In this document: positions 44,173 to 56,981 of the stretch, one piece after another
Numbering within the stretch: position 1 is the first letter of the stretch
How the letters are laid out: each line of letters opens with the position of its first letter
NCBI GenBank assembly: GCA_946537255.1
Contig: CAMNFS010000004.1
Span: 1 to 64,000 of the forward strand
Direction of reading: 5' to 3'
DNA from: an uncultured Erysipelotrichaceae bacterium
Lineage (GTDB): Bacteria > Bacillota_I > Bacilli_A > Erysipelotrichales > Erysipelotrichaceae
Length of the DNA: 64,000 nt
Notes under the pieces: model-generated
What the model was told of the DNA's origin: nothing
The model's database searches: none
The model's input: only the letters and a program-made list of their open reading frames with translations
Program-made: the position numbers and the translations under genes

Positions 44173-47100
44173 TTATTCTTCGCTGATGTCATCATCTTCT
44201 TCCTTGACCTGCTTGGTCAGAACAAGAATCAGCCCGGCGATTAACATGAACAGGACTGCTCCGCCGCCGATCAGAATTCCTGTCGGGAATTCCTTTTTCT
44301 TAACGGCAGACGCGGTTTCGTTATCCGGCACCAGCACAATCCCTTCCGTACTTTCACTGCCCGGTTTGATAACGGGTGTATTCGGAGAAGCAGAAGGCTT
44401 CAGATCAGTAGTATCCGGCTTTGCAGTGCTTCCTGAACCGGAGGAGCTGTTCTGGGACTGTGACTCGGTCCCATTGCTGCTCTGTGAAGGAGCTGCGGGG
44501 GTTCCGGTTCCATTACTGCTGGCTCCCTGATTGGAAGGCACTGCGGTGATGACTGGCGCACTGTTGGAAGATGGTGTGGATGCCGGGGCATAACTGCCGC
44601 CGGACCCGCTGCCGGAGGAAGGATTGGAACTGCTGTTATTTGTGATTTCCCGGTAGGTATTGGTCAGAGAAATGGAGAGAGGTGATTTTGCGGTATGCGT
44701 CTTTTTGACCTCAAAGGTTCCCGAACTTGCGATGCTGAGCGTAAAGCCGCTGATTGCCGCTGAACTGAGTTCTTCTTCCAGCACATATTTTCCGACCGGA
44801 AGATTCAGCCATGGTTTGGTTTCTCCGGCAATGAAGGAAACCCACGCATCCGCCTGACTGGAAGCTCTGGTGCCGTCCTGATAGTAATAGAAGCCGCTGG
44901 TGCTCTTGACCGCAATCCGGTACTGCTGTCCTGCCGCAGACATGGGAGCTCCTCTTACAATCTTGGTAATCAGGACATTGCCGGTATTCGAGTTGACGGT
45001 ATACCGGTTCAGAACATTCGCCGTCACTTTTTTCCCGCCTGCGACACTGTAGCTTCCGGTACCGGTCGTTTTCAGGGAATAGTTCTCAATTTCCGCATCC
45101 TTCGTATTCTCTTCCACCGTATAGATACCGGCAGGAAGATTATTCCAGTTTCTTGTTTCCCCTGCCTTGAAGCTGACATAATGCGGGGAAGTTCCATATA
45201 CGGAACCGCTGGTCCGGTAATATCTGCCATATGCATCCTTTACCGCAATCCCATAGGTCTTTGAGGACGCGGAGGATGGAGCGCCGCTTACGGTATTTGT
45301 GACACTCAGTGTTCCCGCGGAGGAATAGGTATTTTCAATATCCACTGTCTTTGTTCCGGTATCGGAAAGAACGATCTTTCCGGTTCCTTCAACATTCAGG
45401 GCATAGCCGCTGATCAAAGCGGACTCCAAATCCTCTTCCAGTGTATAGGTACCGGCAGAAAGCCCTTCCCAGCTTCTGCTTTCGCCGTTATGAATCGTGA
45501 TGTAAACCGGAGAAGTACCGGCAATGGTTCCATCTGACTTGTAATAAGTCCCTGCCGCATCCCGCAATGCAATCCGGTAGGCTTTGGAATCTGCGGAGGA
45601 AGGTGCGCCATAGACATAAAGATTTACTACAAGATCACTTCTTCTGGCCCTGTAGTTATTGTGAACTTCCGCTTCATTCAGCGCACTTGTGCTGACCGTA
45701 ACCTCACCGGTTCCCTTCACGTTCAGTTCATAGCCATCAATCTGGGCGTGATCAAGATCTTCCTCAATGTAGTACGTGCCATCCTTCAGGCCATTCCAGG
45801 CAATGGATTCCCCTGCCAGGAAGGAAACATAGTCCGGCTGCGGCCCGGCGATACTTCCGTCTGTGGAATAGTAGACATTGTCTCCATCCCGCAGTGCGAT
45901 CCGGTATTCCCGGTTCTTTTCCTTTGCCGGCAGACCGCTTACGGTCTTGGTAATGACAAGAGATCCATCCACTTTGGTATAGACAACAGTATCCGTGAGT
46001 TCAGCAGGATGATCCGCGGTTTTTGTTTCATCTACCTGAACATATCCTTCCTTCGGATCTGTATGGTGTGTCACTTCATAGCCTTCTATCTCAAGATCCG
46101 CCATGTCGATATCCACGGCATAGATTCCTGATGGAAGATTGATCCAGCGGCTGGGATTACTGAGAGATACCGGAATCCAGATCGATTCCTGTGTTTCCGC
46201 GATAGAACCATCCGGGCGGTAGAATTCCATTGTCTCCGTATTTCTGAGAGCTGCCCGGAATTCCTTCTTCTCTGCTTCTTCGGGAACCGGGTAGGAACTG
46301 GATCCGCTTTCCAGGAACAGGGTGAGATCAAATACTCCCTGATCCTTACGGTAGATGGTTTCAACATCTCTTGTGATCACAGCAGGTTCATCGGAAATGC
46401 TGAACTCCGTATCGCCTGTAAATTCGTGGACATATCCCCTGACAGATACCTCGGCTTCATCTTCCAGAATGACATAGTCACCTTCCGGAAGATGATTCCA
46501 GACGGCGGAATCCTTTCTTCCATGGAATACAACAAAGGCATCCTCAGGCGTTTCAGCCTCTTTTCCATCCGGCAGATAATACGCCCCGTCTTTGCCCAGT
46601 ACGGCAATCCTGTAAGAAGAAGGAATCTCTTCCTCTTCAGCACCGGAAACGGTGTGAGAAATGGTGACACTGCCGCTTTCGGCTGTATATTCGCATGCAA
46701 ACAGGACTTCGGAAGTCTGCTTTGGATCAGCTGCTGCAGTAACAAGTGCGCCTTCTTCCTCATCATACGGATTTCCGTTTACTCTGACTGAAAACCCGGG
46801 TTTTGCAAGGTTCGTTGCCGCAAAAGCAATCTCTGTTCCGGAAGGAATTTCCTTAAGGGTCCACACAAACGGATCCGTATCCGTACCGGTTCCTTCTTCC
46901 GCTGTTTCCGCGGTCATGATTCCATTTTCATATCCGTTGGTAATACGGAAATCGGGAATCACACTCAGTCCGGAAAACGAAGCTTTTACCGTAATGGATG
47001 CTTTTTCTGCGGATGCTTTGCGGGCGGAAAGAAACAGTTCCGTTCCATTCAGATAGGTATTGCGAACCATGGATTCCGTATCAGAAGAGATGCGGAATTC

Positions 47101-48702
47101 AAATGGCTCTGAATCCTTCTCATATCCTTCCGCGGCTGTGATCTCCCGGAGGGTATAGGTTTTATTCTCTTCCAGCGTCCATCCGGATTCCGTACTTCCT
47201 TTGACAAGGAAACGGCCGTTATGATCCGTTGTGAATTCCACCGGATTTCCAAGCTGATCCATGACGGGACCGTTTTCATCAAAGAGACCCCATACCGCGC
47301 CGGCAACTCCGGTTTTCGGATCTTCAGCGTCTGTTTTGACGATGGAAATGGAAAGAGGCTCCGTTTTGGATTCCTCAGGAAGGTCCTTGCCGTATTCTGA
47401 CACGGTTTCATCCTTTGAATCTGTTTCTTCGGCTGTTTCAGAAGAATTCTGGTTTTCCTGAGGATTCTGGATCGTTTCTTCCGGATTCGTTTCATCCTGA
47501 ACAATAGATTCCGGCTGGATTACTTCCTCTTCAGGCAGCGCTTCACAGCGAATGGAAATGACATAGGTACTGCCCTCTGTATCGGTAACTGTGAGCGTTC
47601 TTTCGCCTTCGAAACTGTGATCCGCCCGGATGATCCAGTCCTCTCCATAAGGTTCAGCCGCAAGCACGGAACTGTCTGAACTGCGCACATCCGTCAGTGA
47701 AGAAGCAGAAATGGAAAGCTCATTCAGAATGGATGAAAGACTGACCTCACTTTTCTCCCGGATCACCCAGGAATAACTGTCATAGACATGTGAGAGAGTA
47801 TAACTTACACCGAACGCGGAAAAGCTTTTGCCGGTGTATCGGATTTCCTGAATTCCCCCGTTTCTGACAGAGATGTTGCCATTGAGCACTTCACCCTTTC
47901 CGCTGTCTGAAACACGGACAATCCTGGCGGAATGAATGGATGAACTGCTGTCGCCTGCCTGAATCGGAGAGAGGAAGGTCATGGTGATGGAAACCGAGTC
48001 AGCCGGCTTGATCCGCTTCTCCCCTTCCGTGAAATAAACATCATAGAGAACAAACTCAGATCCTTCCTTCAGACCAAGTCCGGAAAAGGAACTGACCGCT
48101 TTCTGATATGCCGAACTGCCTGGCGCAAGATAATCCGCATGAAGTACGGTATTTTCACTGAGACCGGCAGACTTCTTCGCGCTGGCAGTTACATTGACCG
48201 AACCATCTGAGACAGTAAGCCGGACTGCGGATGCCTGACTGGTGCCGGATTCTGTTTTCTTCGAGTCTGTTTCCTTTTTTCGATAATGAAAGGTAAACCG
48301 AATTTCCGATGTACCTGGAAAGACATCGGAATAATAAACCGGAAGACCGGCTTTGGAAGTATAGTACTGACTTCCGATCGCACTGACACTGTCCGTAACG
48401 GCATCCGGACGGACAACAGTCACTTCTCCGGTAAAGACATAGCCCGTTCCAAGATCCCCGGCCATTCCGGATACCGCCGTCGGAGTTTCATTGACGATCA
48501 GTGTCCCGGATTTCTGTGTATTGTCTTCATCACAGAGATAAACGGCGGAAAGAACAGGACCGGCCGGTACTGTTTCATATGCGGGGGAAGATCCTTCTCC
48601 CTCTCTGCCGTCTGTTTCAGCCGATACCGCGGTACCGCTCTGAAAAAACAGATTCATGGAAAGCAATGCTGTAAACAGCTTTTTTACGGTAGTTTTCATC
48701 AC
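44173..48702 (-). CDS. 1509-aa secreted surface protein: SpaA/Cna-B-like domain plus about six tandem divergent ~110-aa modules, Ser/Pro/Asn stalk and C-terminal TM
   Basis: Signal peptide; ISIVKTDAEDPKTGVAGAVWGLFDENG; repeated (V/I)TxxVxGxP...YRIAxRDxxGxYYxxDGxxAG...WxxLxxGxYxxEE; C-terminal KEFPTGILIGGGAVLFMLIAGLILVLTKQ. Confidence 0.88.
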   Translation of the reverse strand: MMKTTVKKLFTALLSMNLFFQSGTAVSAETDGREGEGSSPAYETVPAGPVLSAVYLCDEDNTQKSGTLIVNETPTAVSGMAGDLGTGYVFTGEVTVVRPDAVTDSVSAIGSQYYTSKAGLPVYYSDVFPGTSEIRFTFHYRKKETDSKKTESGTSQASAVRLTVSDGSVNVTASAKKSAGLSENTVLHADYLAPGSSAYQKAVSSFSGLGLKEGSEFVLYDVYFTEGEKRIKPADSVSITMTFLSPIQAGDSSSSIHSARIVRVSDSGKGEVLNGNISVRNGGIQEIRYTGKSFSAFGVSYTLSHVYDSYSWVIREKSEVSLSSILNELSISASSLTDVRSSDSSVLAAEPYGEDWIIRADHSFEGERTLTVTDTEGSTYVISIRCEALPEEEVIQPESIVQDETNPEETIQNPQENQNSSETAEETDSKDETVSEYGKDLPEESKTEPLSISIVKTDAEDPKTGVAGAVWGLFDENGPVMDQLGNPVEFTTDHNGRFLVKGSTESGWTLEENKTYTLREITAAEGYEKDSEPFEFRISSDTESMVRNTYLNGTELFLSARKASAEKASITVKASFSGLSVIPDFRITNGYENGIMTAETAEEGTGTDTDPFVWTLKEIPSGTEIAFAATNLAKPGFSVRVNGNPYDEEEGALVTAAADPKQTSEVLFACEYTAESGSVTISHTVSGAEEEEIPSSYRIAVLGKDGAYYLPDGKEAETPEDAFVVFHGRKDSAVWNHLPEGDYVILEDEAEVSVRGYVHEFTGDTEFSISDEPAVITRDVETIYRKDQGVFDLTLFLESGSSSYPVPEEAEKKEFRAALRNTETMEFYRPDGSIAETQESIWIPVSLSNPSRWINLPSGIYAVDIDMADLEIEGYEVTHHTDPKEGYVQVDETKTADHPAELTDTVVYTKVDGSLVITKTVSGLPAKEKNREYRIALRDGDNVYYSTDGSIAGPQPDYVSFLAGESIAWNGLKDGTYYIEEDLDHAQIDGYELNVKGTGEVTVSTSALNEAEVHNNYRARRSDLVVNLYVYGAPSSADSKAYRIALRDAAGTYYKSDGTIAGTSPVYITIHNGESRSWEGLSAGTYTLEEDLESALISGYALNVEGTGKIVLSDTGTKTVDIENTYSSAGTLSVTNTVSGAPSSASSKTYGIAVKDAYGRYYRTSGSVYGTSPHYVSFKAGETRNWNNLPAGIYTVEENTKDAEIENYSLKTTGTGSYSVAGGKKVTANVLNRYTVNSNTGNVLITKIVRGAPMSAAGQQYRIAVKSTSGFYYYQDGTRASSQADAWVSFIAGETKPWLNLPVGKYVLEEELSSAAISGFTLSIASSGTFEVKKTHTAKSPLSISLTNTYREITNNSSSNPSSGSGSGGSYAPASTPSSNSAPVITAVPSNQGASSNGTGTPAAPSQSSNGTESQSQNSSSGSGSTAKPDTTDLKPSASPNTPVIKPGSESTEGIVLVPDNETASAVKKKEFPTGILIGGGAVLFMLIAGLILVLTKQVKEEDDDISEE

Positions 48703-51955: not shown

Positions 51956-52984
51956 TCAGGCCAGAATCGGTTCGTCATGCTCAAACAGAGACAGATTGAT
52001 TTCATTGACATCATATACTCCCTGGGTAATGAAATACTGTACGATCAGATCCGAGCGGCTGCTCGGACTCAGGGCATATCCTGCTCTGGCAAGCAGATCC
52101 GTGGTTTCATCCATGGAAAGATTCAGGGCAACCGCAAGGGCGAGAACCGTATTTTTCTTCGGATGATATTTGGGATTGGAACGGATCTTGGAAAACAGTT
52201 TCCGGTCAAGATTGGCACGGTGATACACCTCCGGATCCGTATACCCTTTCCTGTCAATCCAGTTCAGAAGGCTTTCCTGAAAGGTCTCTCCCAGCTGGTC
52301 GATCATGCTTTCAAGCTCGCAGGAAGCCGCTTCCATCGCTTCTTCCCTGCCGTAATTTTTCAGGCTGATATCCGAATGGAAGAGAGCGCTGACCGGGGCG
52401 GAACCCGGTTTTCGCCGTCTTTCCTGCCGGTATTCATTCCGAATGGCGTTTTCGACATAGTGTTCGTCGAGATAGGAATCCACACCCCGGTAGATCCGAT
52501 CGGATATTTCAAAGGATGATCGGTCAAACACGGCAATCGTGATCTTCATATCATGATCCAGCAGATAGCGGGAACTTTCTTCAATCAGAATATGCAGAGA
52601 ATCTTCACGGGGATATCCGTTGGATCCCGTCCCAAGCAGAGGCATGGCAACTGAACGAAGATTCTTCCGTTCGGCTTCCTCAAAAATCCTTTCCGCGCAT
52701 TGATGGAGATAATCGAGACACTCTCGGCGTCTTTCCTCCTGATAAACCGGATAAACCGCGTGGATAATCCATCTGGCCGGAAGATTGAATCCTTCTGTCA
52801 CAAAAACAGTCCCAGGCTCCACGGATCCGATCCGGATTCTTTCCTTCAGAAGGCGTTCCTTCCCTGCTGCCGCATAGACCGCGGATTCAGATCCGCTTCC
52901 GATGATCGGATGCGGATTAGCCGTGCAGACGATCGCGTCCGCATGAATCCTGGTAATATCTTCACGTATGATTGATAATGGCAT
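51956..52984 (-). CDS. Macro domain fused to a C-terminal helical (HTH-like) domain
   Basis: ITRIHADAIVCTANPHPIIGSGSESAVYAAAG; SVAMPLLGTGSNGYP (macro); C-terminal NLDRKLFSKIRSNPKYHPKKNTVLALAVALNLSMDETTDLLARAGYALS. Confidence 0.88.
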   Translation of the reverse strand: MPLSIIREDITRIHADAIVCTANPHPIIGSGSESAVYAAAGKERLLKERIRIGSVEPGTVFVTEGFNLPARWIIHAVYPVYQEERRRECLDYLHQCAERIFEEAERKNLRSVAMPLLGTGSNGYPREDSLHILIEESSRYLLDHDMKITIAVFDRSSFEISDRIYRGVDSYLDEHYVENAIRNEYRQERRRKPGSAPVSALFHSDISLKNYGREEAMEAASCELESMIDQLGETFQESLLNWIDRKGYTDPEVYHRANLDRKLFSKIRSNPKYHPKKNTVLALAVALNLSMDETTDLLARAGYALSPSSRSDLIVQYFITQGVYDVNEINLSLFEHDEPILA

Positions 52985-52992
52985 GATTCACC

Positions 52993-53781
52993 TCAGTTTT
53001 TTGCATGCATGTCGAGCTGCGGATAAGGAATGACAATTCCTGCCTGATGCAGATCACGCTGAATGATCCGCAGTGCTTCCCGGCGGAGATCCGGCATCTG
53101 ATCCGGTGCGCAGAAGAAACGGATTTTGTAAATTATGCAGGAATCGCGGAACTCATGCACCCCTTTGTAAATACATTCCGAAATTCCCTCGACTTCCGCA
53201 ATATGCACGCAGGTCTCCTGCAGCGTAAGGTTGATATGTTCCGGATCATCCTCATAGGAAAGACCGATATCGATGTCATTCTGTCTCGATTTTCTTGTGA
53301 CATTGTCAATATTCCGATTGGCAATAATATGCATGTCATGGGTATAGATATCATCGATCCGTACGCTTCTTGCGGACATGGCGGTTACCTTTCCGGTAAT
53401 GTCGTGGAATACGATCGTGTCCCCGACATCAAAGTAGTTGTCCTGAGAAAGATGAATTCCATTGACAATATCCCTCAGCAGATCCTGCATGGCAAGACCT
53501 ACCACCGCGGAGAGAACACTCAGAAACGCTGCCAGCGTGGTAAGACGGATGCCGTTGATATGGAGAATTGTCATGACCATGATGACAACCAGGCTGCCCT
53601 GAATCAGCCGGTAGATCATATGGGAAATCTGTGAGATTCTCTGATCCGGCCGGATGATCTTCTCTTTCCTCAGCCGCTTGTATGCGGAAGAGACCAGATG
53701 ATTGGCAAACAGATACAGCGCCAGGACAATAATGGAACCGATAAACGCAGGAGACTGCACATAACTGACGATTTCATTCAT
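52993..53781 (-). CDS. Small-conductance mechanosensitive channel family protein (MscS-type)
   Basis: TLAAFLSVLSAVVGLAMQDLLRDIVNGIHLSQDNYFDVGDTIVFHDITGKVTAMSARSVRI. Confidence 0.9.
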   Translation of the reverse strand: MNEIVSYVQSPAFIGSIIVLALYLFANHLVSSAYKRLRKEKIIRPDQRISQISHMIYRLIQGSLVVIMVMTILHINGIRLTTLAAFLSVLSAVVGLAMQDLLRDIVNGIHLSQDNYFDVGDTIVFHDITGKVTAMSARSVRIDDIYTHDMHIIANRNIDNVTRKSRQNDIDIGLSYEDDPEHINLTLQETCVHIAEVEGISECIYKGVHEFRDSCIIYKIRFFCAPDQMPDLRREALRIIQRDLHQAGIVIPYPQLDMHAKN

Positions 53782-53972: not shown

Positions 53973-56900
53973 TCAGGCAAGAGGAATATTGTTTCTCTGC
54001 AGGATTTCCTTGATCTTCCAGTTCAGCAGGTCTTCTGTTTCCCCGCGGTAGCGTTCCGCTACTTCGGCCTGCACCCGGCAGAGCATTGTGCCTTTTTCAA
54101 GGGCATGGATACCAAGGAAAACCGGATCCTTCAGGATCATCGGATACTGCGGACGGATTTCCTTCAGTTCACGGTTCAGTGTCTCGGCAAGAAAATTAAT
54201 ATCCACTGTATTGGGTACGAGGAAGCTGGTGATGGCATAGGAATTCCTATTCGTCATATTCAGAACACTGGACAGATTCCGGTTGTTGATAATCTTGACA
54301 TTTTTTGTCCAGGATACAATCTTGGTTGTGCGGATGCCGATCTCCTTTACCATTCCCATGAAGCCATTGACTTCAACGATATCACCCACCTGAAAATCCC
54401 CTTCAAAAATGATGAACAGACCGGCAAGGATATCCGTAATCAGATCCTTTGCGCCCATACCTATGACAAGTCCCATGATTCCCACGGAAGCAACCAGAGC
54501 ACGGATATCAAATCCAAGCCGCAGAAGACAGATGTAGAGAATCAGAAGCACGGAAAACAGCTTGATCGTACTGCTCATAAGACGGCAGAAGGTTTCACCC
54601 CGCGGCTGCATCAGCTGCGAAAGCAGATTCAGCACAAGGACGATGACCGTTACAAGGATCGTTCCGCAGACAATCGTAACAAGCACGGATGTCACCGAAA
54701 ATACATTGATGCCGCTGCCGTGGGAAATGGACATGCTGTAGGTAATGACAGAACGGAAGTTTTCGCTCTTCAGATAAAACAGAACCATAAAGAAAGCCGC
54801 GACTGCAACCAGAAGATGAATGATCGAAGACACCTTCTCTTCCGGCAGCATCTCCTTCCATTCCTGGCGGAAATCAGAGGCAGAAGTTCTTTTCTTCCTG
54901 GGACTGATGGAAAAGATATTCTGATCCCTGTCGCTGTTGTAATAAATATCGATAAGCTTTGGATTGACTACGATCGTATCGTTTCTCGCACAGTATACGG
55001 TTGTCTTTTTCCCGTGTTTTGCCCGCATCACAAACAGGCAGATACAGAAGCAGAGCACGGAAAACAGAACCGCAGTCAGGGTAATCTCAGTACGCCCGAG
55101 AAACGCATTATTGTATGGCTGCCCGACGAAGACAAGATATGGATCCATCTTCCGGTTGGTCGCGTAGTAGGAATTATACGCAAGGTTCACCTTTCCGGTA
55201 TAGTACGGGTTCAGCATCTCTTCCCGGTAACCGTCATAATCCTCCAGGGAAGTGCCGATGGTATCCTTCTCCGGACAGTGTACAATCGTCCTGTTTTCAG
55301 GATTCAGAACAATGAACGAGTTAATGCCGTTATTGACCCGCTCGGAGATGATATAGCTGATATCGGAATGTTCGATCGCCTGCTTCTGCTTATCAGCCCG
55401 GAATACAGCCTGAAGAATGCCATAGGGATTGTTTTCCTCATCAGTAAGCAGAACCCCGACAGGAAGAACATAACCGCTTCCCCATGGATCCTTGATGACA
55501 TCTCCTGTAAGGTATGGACGCCCCTTCTGAAGATCCGTAAAATGAATGACGTTTTCCGTATTTTCTTCGGAGGCAGTGATATCCTCCAGCACAAGATTGG
55601 TCAGAGTTCCGCTTCCATACATTTCCTTCCCGTCCATATCAAAGACCACAACGCGCTCGAGATTAAAGGAATCACTGATCTTCGAAATTTCGGTCCGGTT
55701 TCTACAGGATGGATTTTCAAAAATATATCCGGCTAAGATTTGGGTGGTTTCCAGAAACTGATTCTTACTGGTGTTCAGATAATGATCCTGTTCATTATGC
55801 ATTTCCTGTATGGTTGCCTGCAGGAGGCTGATCTCCTGATCCGCGCCGGTGATCAGTGTGGAGATGGAGGAAAGCGTATCGATATAGTATACAAATCCTC
55901 CCACTGCCAGAAGACCGATAAAGCCGATGATCAGGGTTTTGTAGCGGATGGCAGACGGGGTGTAGGAACTGTCAGTGACGCCAACGCTGCGGTACTGCCG
56001 GTTATAGTACACATAGGTGCTCTCCAGAATCAGGATACAGAAGAAAAATACGGTCACCAGCAGTGCCTGTGTCGCTGAGGAGGAAATCACCGGAGAAAGA
56101 TCCGAGATACTGTAGATGTAACGACCAGTGCGTTCATAAACAGTTCTGCTGGAAAAATACAGTTTTCCCTTTCCGGCATGGATTCCCAGATCAAACCGGT
56201 CTGATTCGGACAGGTACTGATTCTGTTCATTTCCGAATACCTCATGGATCTTTTTCCCGATCAGTGACTGATCCTTTGCAAAAACGATTTCTTCGTTTTG
56301 ATCTACCAGTAATGCCGAAAGATGATCCGTGGTCTTGGTGACAAACAGCTGCTCGTAATCCTCTTCATGATTCAGCTCCTTCAGCAGACTTTCAAAACTG
56401 TACTGAAACACAATCCAGGAGTCATTGTCGATTCTCCTTCCGCAATGGGTCAGGAAAACGGAATCGGTGAGGGAATCGTATGTCGGTTCTTCAACAAAGG
56501 GTTCCCAGCTCTCTTTGTCAATTTTGGTCAGAAATCCGGTTTTCTGAAATGAGCGTGTCTGAGCAACGACGTTCCCATTCCGGTCAATGATGGCGGCTTT
56601 CAGATTCTGAAACGGAATCAGAAGAGAATCCATCAGATATTCCTGATTCATTTCCGTCGGATTGTTTCTCTTTGACTCATATTCATACAGAACAAAAGTC
56701 GTACGCTGCAAGTAGGATTCGCGTATGATATCATTGAGAATCACATCATTTTCATCCAGGGTTTCAAGTGCCTGAATGGTGTTTTCCGTGTGATCAATAT
56801 TTATGGAAACCTGACGTGCCATGGAAATAGAAAGATCGGTCAGAAACAGAATGGCGCCGACGGCCAGAGATAAAAGCAGGTCAATCAGGATGACCCTGCG

Positions 56901-56981
56901 TACGGAAAGATAATATGCAGTACCTTTTTCCTTTTCTTTTTTCTGAATCGGCTCCATCTCTGTCTCCCTTGAAAGATGCAT
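53973..56981 (-). CDS. Multi-domain MscS channel with two extracytoplasmic Cache-like sensor regions
   Basis: C-terminal VASVGIMGLVIGMGAKDLITDILAGLFIIFEGDFQVGDIVEVNGFMGMVKEIGIRTTKI (MscS); HLSALLVDQNEEIVFAKDQSLIGKKI and SFIVLNPENRTIVHCPEKDTIGTSL (Cache-like) in two TM-bounded regions. Confidence 0.88.
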   Translation of the reverse strand: MHLSRETEMEPIQKKEKEKGTAYYLSVRRVILIDLLLSLAVGAILFLTDLSISMARQVSINIDHTENTIQALETLDENDVILNDIIRESYLQRTTFVLYEYESKRNNPTEMNQEYLMDSLLIPFQNLKAAIIDRNGNVVAQTRSFQKTGFLTKIDKESWEPFVEEPTYDSLTDSVFLTHCGRRIDNDSWIVFQYSFESLLKELNHEEDYEQLFVTKTTDHLSALLVDQNEEIVFAKDQSLIGKKIHEVFGNEQNQYLSESDRFDLGIHAGKGKLYFSSRTVYERTGRYIYSISDLSPVISSSATQALLVTVFFFCILILESTYVYYNRQYRSVGVTDSSYTPSAIRYKTLIIGFIGLLAVGGFVYYIDTLSSISTLITGADQEISLLQATIQEMHNEQDHYLNTSKNQFLETTQILAGYIFENPSCRNRTEISKISDSFNLERVVVFDMDGKEMYGSGTLTNLVLEDITASEENTENVIHFTDLQKGRPYLTGDVIKDPWGSGYVLPVGVLLTDEENNPYGILQAVFRADKQKQAIEHSDISYIISERVNNGINSFIVLNPENRTIVHCPEKDTIGTSLEDYDGYREEMLNPYYTGKVNLAYNSYYATNRKMDPYLVFVGQPYNNAFLGRTEITLTAVLFSVLCFCICLFVMRAKHGKKTTVYCARNDTIVVNPKLIDIYYNSDRDQNIFSISPRKKRTSASDFRQEWKEMLPEEKVSSIIHLLVAVAAFFMVLFYLKSENFRSVITYSMSISHGSGINVFSVTSVLVTIVCGTILVTVIVLVLNLLSQLMQPRGETFCRLMSSTIKLFSVLLILYICLLRLGFDIRALVASVGIMGLVIGMGAKDLITDILAGLFIIFEGDFQVGDIVEVNGFMGMVKEIGIRTTKIVSWTKNVKIINNRNLSSVLNMTNRNSYAITSFLVPNTVDINFLAETLNRELKEIRPQYPMILKDPVFLGIHALEKGTMLCRVQAEVAERYRGETEDLLNWKIKEILQRNNIPLA

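Follow-up and report, generated by a model that had tools for sequence, protein, structure and literature searches.

What does an MscS-type channel do with two large sensor-like regions outside the cell? The question is raised by an open reading frame (ORF) in the stretch of 64,000 nucleotides analysed here (the window), which comes from an uncultured Erysipelotrichaceae bacterium (assembly GCA_946537255.1, contig CAMNFS010000004.1). The ORF, at 53973–56981 on the minus strand, comprises 1002 codons with no internal stop, and a first-pass annotation made from the letters alone had taken it for a candidate ligand-gated mechanosensitive channel. We consider it fairly probable that the protein is a receptor-channel, that is, an MscS pore that an extracellular ligand, or a solute-binding protein (SBP) carrying its ligand, gates or tunes. 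The protein and its relatives display a shared and conserved architecture, a predicted double Cache (dCache) fold of both sensors, a signal of duplication and, in other clades, linkage to SBP genes.

Pfam recognises in the window protein the MscS beta domain (PF00924, residues 846–910, E value 1.7e-14, 54.1 bits with a cut-off of 20.2) and the pore helices (PF21088, MS_channel_1st, residues 807–845, E value 7.3e-6, 26.3 bits with a cut-off of 23.1), and no other family above its cut-off. The closest solved structure is MscS of T. tengcongensis (3t9n/3udc; E value 6e-28, residues 788–1000), and solved MscS proteins start to align at about residue 765–788. Matches to the NCBIfam equivalogs MscS, YbiO, MscM and MscK are confined to the channel end and lie far under the full-length cut-offs (for MscK 17.6 of 991 bits, in the pore region only). 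Across the 120 long family members assembled for this analysis (about 800–1275 residues, window protein included, a few cut by contig ends), G823, D850 and G854 are invariant and the equivalents of the hydrophobic constriction are kept, with leucine at 838 in 99 and at 842 in 91 members (methionine in the window protein); the equivalence of these two positions to L105 and L109 of E. coli MscS rests on our own alignment of the pore helix. The canonical MscS pore and beta domain named by the first-pass annotation are thus borne out by Pfam, solved homologues and conserved pore positions, and the pore is presumably heptameric. Translation probably starts at Met9 (position 56957), because an AGGGAG resembling a ribosome-binding site sits 6 nt before its ATG; the protein would then have 994 residues.

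Hydropathy places seven transmembrane (TM) helices ahead of the pore helix (Table 1; TM5, TM6 and TM7 at residues 717–735, 766–784 and 808–826), leaving extracytoplasmic segments of about 255 residues between TM1 and TM2 and about 265 between TM3 and TM4. The proposed layout of TM, sensor 1, TM, TM, sensor 2, TM, linker, TMs and MscS pore and beta domain is upheld by hydropathy and Pfam, and this order of helices and loops is common to all 120 long members. Over the same set, basic residues prevail in the N-terminal tail (net charge +26 per 100 residues) and in the TM2–TM3 loop, and the two large loops are acidic. This charge pattern, together with the known orientation of MscS, leads us to assign the sensors to the outer side of the membrane and the linker (residues 655–714) to the cytoplasm.

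Domains of the dCache type average about 271 residues and fill the extracellular region between two TM helices (PMC4822843); both window sensors fill their whole TM–TM region and are near that average. AlphaFold2 models of sensors 1 and 2 (mean predicted local distance difference test scores of 87.4 and 91.2) show a helix that continues unbroken from the TM segment as a stalk, followed by two alpha/beta lobes and by an exit helix that leads on into the subsequent TM segment. With these models, the leading Foldseek matches in the PDB were almost all dCache ligand-binding domains, including those of amino-acid, purine and other receptors (probability 1.00, both lobes covered, best E values of 7.7e-8 for sensor 1 and about 1e-9 for sensor 2). 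By AlphaFold2 and Foldseek, at template modelling scores (TM-scores) below 0.55, both sensors have the stalk helix and the two PAS-like lobes of a dCache domain. The first-pass annotation had also proposed a search with dCache and sCache profiles. When it was run on relatives, dCache_1 was the top Pfam family, being the commonest among 79 diverse sensor-1 sequences (20 of 79, best E value 1.3e-6, ahead of dCache_2 with 15) and first again among 79 sensor-2 sequences (37 of 79, best E value 4.3e-10). One Collinsella member (L134) passes the dCache_1 cut-off (45.7 versus 45 bits, profile positions 12–239 of 240), and the Blautia schinkii member (L129) falls below it at 41.9 bits. The sensor-1 profile further matches Mlp37 (3c8c, E value 1.1e-5) and McpH (8bmv, 6e-4) via the membrane-proximal lobe, whereas a PDB sequence search with the Collinsella sensor 2 gave no useful match. 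In amino-acid-sensing domains of the dCache_1AA type, the binding motif includes the arginine equivalent to R126 of PctA; at the likely corresponding position, judged by eye without an alignment to PctA over the lobe, 86 of the 120 members have glutamine and the window protein asparagine. Hence the loops do not fail to look like Cache or PAS domains, the outcome that would have spoken against the earlier proposal, and its two Cache-like regions stand as predicted Cache with one refinement: each would be a double Cache, giving a predicted four PAS-like lobes in two dCache modules per subunit. We predict that the sensors share the dCache fold by homology, a claim of kinship and not of tight superposition.

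The two sensors are also related to each other. Alignment of their profiles with hhalign (probability 99.9, E value 2.6e-31, 294 columns, TM helices included) makes duplication of a TM-dCache-TM unit probably the simplest reading. Measured as the frequency of the commonest residue in each column, averaged over columns, conservation is 0.70 in the pore and beta domain, 0.50 in the distal lobe of sensor 2, which is the best-conserved part of the N-terminal extension, and 0.38–0.43 in the lobes of sensor 1, the less conserved of the two. Receptors of the dCache_1 type usually bind their ligand in the distal lobe. A separate observation concerns L173:1351-3246 in genome G399, which matched the family profile through its sensor (E value 1e-22) and was rejected as an MscS member, being a GGDEF diguanylate cyclase without an MscS domain; its sensor is possibly a cousin of those described here with a different output.

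Ligand control is strengthened, and a candidate co-receptor added, by the SBP linkage in most relatives from Clostridia and Coriobacteriia. Among 62 loci on genome contigs, 60 had enough upstream DNA, and in 48 of these an SBP gene of one family lies directly upstream of the channel gene on the same strand; all belong to Clostridia and Coriobacteriia (Bacillota, Actinomycetota). The spacing is mostly −49 to +22 bp, with one case of +90 bp and one of −151 bp, in which the start of the channel ORF is probably set too far upstream. The upstream protein belongs to SBP_bac_3 (E value 2.9e-27; an example is L101:3828-4661), with a weak additional match to Lig_chan-Glu_bd (1.6e-5), and among proteins of solved structure it is closest to PEB1a (2v25) and to the glutamine-binding and lysine/arginine/ornithine-binding proteins. 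An alignment of 25 linked SBPs shows a conserved arginine and a conserved aspartate, of the kind by which members of this family typically bind amino acids, and a simple pattern finds a clear lipobox in 11 of the 25. No amino-acid permease was recognised beside the SBP–channel pairs, among which not every neighbouring gene was tested. A second type of partner occurs in a subclade of the window's genus with proteins of about 1115 residues (e.g. L036:8106-9167; also L038, L039 and L048), where the gene of an NMT1-type SBP overlaps the 3' end of the channel gene by 3–4 bp in 8 sequences.

The family is spread over several lineages. Sensor-region profile matches occur in 43 of 70 genomes of the window's genus (up to 12 per genome, some partial), and a scan of species genomes yielded 80 loci in Erysipelotrichaceae, Lachnospiraceae, Oscillospiraceae, Collinsella and Olsenella (Actinomycetota) and one Flexilinea (Chloroflexota). 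Samples centred on individual taxa, for which the match thresholds differ, gave matches in 13 of 250 genomes for Lachnospiraceae, 15 of 60 for Collinsella and 6 of 201 for Oscillospiraceae; in a broad phylum sample 3 of 392 genomes matched, one of them through a GGDEF protein and not a channel. The layout is present with intact frames in the isolates Blautia schinkii DSM 10518, Collinsella tanakaei, C. ihumii and Lachnospiraceae CE91-St61 (complete genome). The window's own genome (G000) holds an intact divergent paralogue of 972 residues (L022:3658-6576, contig 67) and a broken extra copy at a contig end (L002, contig 59, ~110-1511), whose channel and sensor-2 fragments lie in different frames. 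A member of 1234 residues with longer insertions (L172:1450-5154) comes from another family of the same class.

We propose the following hypothetical mechanism for an MscS-type pore, presumably heptameric, with an N-terminal extension of two TM-dCache-TM units, in which (i) a small extracellular molecule, or a ligand-loaded SBP, would bind the dCache lobes; (ii) binding would shift the stalk helices and TM2 and TM4; (iii) the channel helices would receive this shift via the short linker in the cytoplasm; (iv) the pore would open, close or change its tension threshold or open probability, so that release of solutes or ions would depend on outside chemistry plus membrane tension. In many relatives the ligand would act through the SBP, and the window copy may bind its ligand directly. 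Ligand binding, signal transmission, conduction and residual mechanosensitivity are what we infer here.

Several observations weigh against this proposal. The window protein by itself gives no Cache match in Pfam or NCBIfam, and most relatives score under the Pfam gathering cut-off for dCache_1. The Foldseek TM-scores are low (about 0.2–0.54) and the root-mean-square deviations high despite alignments over both lobes, which we attribute to the angles of lobes and stalk and to the presence of TM helices in the query models. In window sensor 2, a stretch conserved elsewhere as SxDPEDQSYxFxxLL is replaced and directly preceded by a five-residue insertion, and its ligand site may therefore have been changed or lost. 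Neither type of SBP gene adjoins the window copy or its close relatives. Finally, the patchy spread of the family indicates that it is not an essential housekeeping function.

An ordinary osmotic safety valve, gated by tension only and with dCache regions that are structural (wall anchor, membrane shaping or oligomer assembly), appears unlikely, although its pore and beta domain would be just as canonical, large extracellular additions are known in other MscS subfamilies (PMC4560390), and an aquaporin-type (MIP) gene just upstream of the SBP–channel pair in seven loci (L130, L101, L110, L116, L121, L124 and L126) fits osmotic work. The fold predicted for both extensions is that of a superfamily dedicated to sensing ligands, the best-conserved part of the extension coincides with the usual dCache_1 ligand site, and a valve responding purely to tension offers no ready explanation for the coupled SBP genes.

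The affinity of the linked SBP to PEB1a and other amino-acid binding proteins would also suit a regulated metabolite exporter, in which sensors and SBP report an outside amino acid and switch export, as in glutamate export by MscCG in Corynebacterium; channels of this type secrete glutamate (PMC7835871, PMC9861469). We regard this version as doubtful, since the pore sequence gives no substrate specificity, no exporter phenotype is known and the window copy lacks an SBP; it overlaps the receptor-channel proposal, of which it is a special case. It is very improbable that the protein is a non-conducting signalling receptor whose MscS body serves as an oligomer scaffold: some members of the superfamily showed no mechanosensitivity when tested (PMC4560390), and the small MscS and macro-domain proteins encoded next to it could be effectors, but pore-lining and hydrophobic-gate positions are conserved over the 120 members and no other output domain was detected in the protein. 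An assembly or gene-fusion artefact, which the first-pass annotation had named as a possible refutation and which the draft state of the genome (129 contigs) might invite, can be set aside with near certainty, because a count of homologues, also proposed there, yielded 119 other long proteins of the same architecture with intact frames, isolate genomes among them, so that neither chance nor a chimaeric contig accounts for the layout.

Table 1. Features of the dCache-MscS gene and its downstream neighbours in the window (residue numbers in brackets).
Feature	Position	Strand	Basis
dCache-dCache-MscS, probable coding sequence, 994 residues from Met9	53973..56957	-	ORF, AGGGAG
Shine-Dalgarno-like AGGGAG	56964..56969	-	sequence read directly
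TM1 (30-48), N terminus inside	56838..56894	-	hydropathy, basic N-terminal tail
Sensor 1 (~53-303), long stalk helix and two PAS-like lobes, predicted dCache, extracytoplasmic	56073..56825	-	AlphaFold2, Foldseek, profile, Pfam on relatives
TM2 (306-324)	56010..56066	-	hydropathy; AlphaFold2 C-terminal helix of sensor 1 extends into it
TM3 (349-367)	55881..55937	-	hydropathy; continuous with sensor 2 stalk helix
Sensor 2 (~370-631), stalk helix and two PAS-like lobes, predicted dCache, extracytoplasmic	55089..55874	-	AlphaFold2, Foldseek, Pfam on relatives
TM4 (633-651)	55029..55085	-	hydropathy, AlphaFold2 helix
Linker (655-714), sensor 2 to channel, presumed cytoplasmic	54840..55019	-	between predicted TM4 and TM5; inside by topology
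Channel TM5, TM6, TM7 (717-826)	54504..54833	-	hydropathy, MS_channel_1st, alignment to solved MscS
MscS pore helix (829-861), constriction equivalents L838 and M842	54399..54497	-	family conservation
MscS beta domain (846-910)	54252..54446	-	PF00924, E value 1.7e-14
Small MscS-family protein, 262 residues, downstream, probable operon partner	52993..53781	-	PF00924, E value 1.3e-9
Macro-domain protein, downstream of small MscS	51956..52984	-	PF01661, E value 8.7e-25

Downstream of the dCache-MscS gene, the small MscS gene follows after 191 bp and the macro-domain gene, of ADP-ribose type, 8 bp beyond (Table 1). This pair (51956-53781) is conserved beside dCache-MscS in a second species (G033, locus L031), where the order is dCache-MscS, dCache-MscS, small MscS, macro and where the proteins at the same positions are 61% (small MscS) and 53% (macro) identical to those of the window. 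Tandem dCache-MscS pairs were found in eight genomes of the genus (L023, L025–L031). In the pore tree, first tandem genes group apart from second ones, and branching within the two groups follows the same order (bootstrap not fully settled); this mirrored branching indicates that the tandem genes have long been co-inherited as a pair and suggests that they encode paired subunits. Genes for a SAM hydroxide adenosyltransferase adjoin some tandem pairs (L023:6585-7463, also L027 and L028). In a wider and more tentative proposal, to which we give somewhat less than an even chance, these proteins would form a distinct, widespread class of bacterial channels gated by extracellular ligands: presumed MscS heptamers with 14 dCache modules each, many with a dedicated amino-acid-type SBP as co-receptor and, in one clade, with ancient paired subunits, which may assemble into hetero-oligomers that respond to different ligands.

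Elsewhere in the window, a surface protein of 1509 residues (44173-48702) has an SpaA fold and DUF5979-like repeats, and its C-terminal tail (FPTG, TM segment, charged residues) looks like a sortase signal. No Rfam RNA was found in the window; promoter-like sites occur at chance level and terminator-like sites somewhat above it (14 versus 8.9 ± 2.5 expected).

With Cache sensors placed directly on a pore, nutrient binding could alter membrane permeability in one step. If this is true, MscS channels of gut bacteria would be chemically addressable receptors and more than emergency valves, and the conserved SBP–channel gene pair supplies a candidate co-receptor in the cultured Blautia schinkii and Collinsella tanakaei.

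Compared with known systems, the window protein shares pore helices, beta domain and hydrophobic constriction residues with MscS of T. tengcongensis and E. coli. Its additions to these amount to about 650 residues with four further TM helices and two extracytoplasmic dCache modules, plus a cytoplasmic linker and one more TM helix before the core. With dCache receptors such as PctA, Mlp24, Mlp37, McpH and KinD it has in common the TM-dCache-TM unit and the predicted fold; in contrast to dCache chemoreceptors, kinases and diguanylate cyclases, its output is a pore rather than a methyl-accepting chemotaxis, kinase or GGDEF domain, and each chain carries two dCache units. GluR0 is a binding domain fused to a K+ channel pore. 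The outline would be similar here, with an extracellular amino-acid sensor controlling a channel, but the SBP is encoded by a separate gene, the pore is MscS and Pfam finds no K+ channel domain in the window protein, which is not a GluR0 member. For the role of the SBP, the model is borrowed from LuxP–LuxQ, in which a separate binding protein acts via a Cache-type sensor whose output, in LuxQ, is a kinase; contact of the SBP with the present sensors would be analogous. In bCNG channels, the cyclic-nucleotide domain is cytoplasmic and C-terminal. They likewise fuse an MscS core to a ligand-binding domain, whereas the sensors described here are outside, N-terminal and dCache, and neither Pfam nor NCBIfam finds a cyclic-nucleotide-binding domain in the window protein. 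As Caldwell 2010 is represented in PMC4560390, bCNG provides a precedent for ligand-gated MscS. Cache is the largest prokaryotic extracellular sensor superfamily, and the 2016 census lists kinases, chemoreceptors, cyclases and phosphatases as its partners; under 'ion channels' its Table 1 has nothing but VWA_N/VGCC_alpha2 proteins, which are auxiliary subunits of the animal type (PMC4822843); a preprint on dCache_1AM names chemoreceptors, kinases, cyclic (di)nucleotide enzymes, phosphatases and a stand-alone form (PMC10104139). The alpha2delta protein of animal calcium channels also ties Cache domains to an ion channel (PMC4822843), but as a poreless auxiliary subunit, whereas the bacterial protein has the sensor and an unrelated pore in one chain. 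No dCache-MscS fusion or SBP linkage is described in the literature searched, which is weak evidence of absence as most subscription papers lay outside the search; the family is apparently widespread and undescribed. While ligand-binding additions to MscS are already known in principle from bCNG, the dCache version and its SBP linkage appear to be new.

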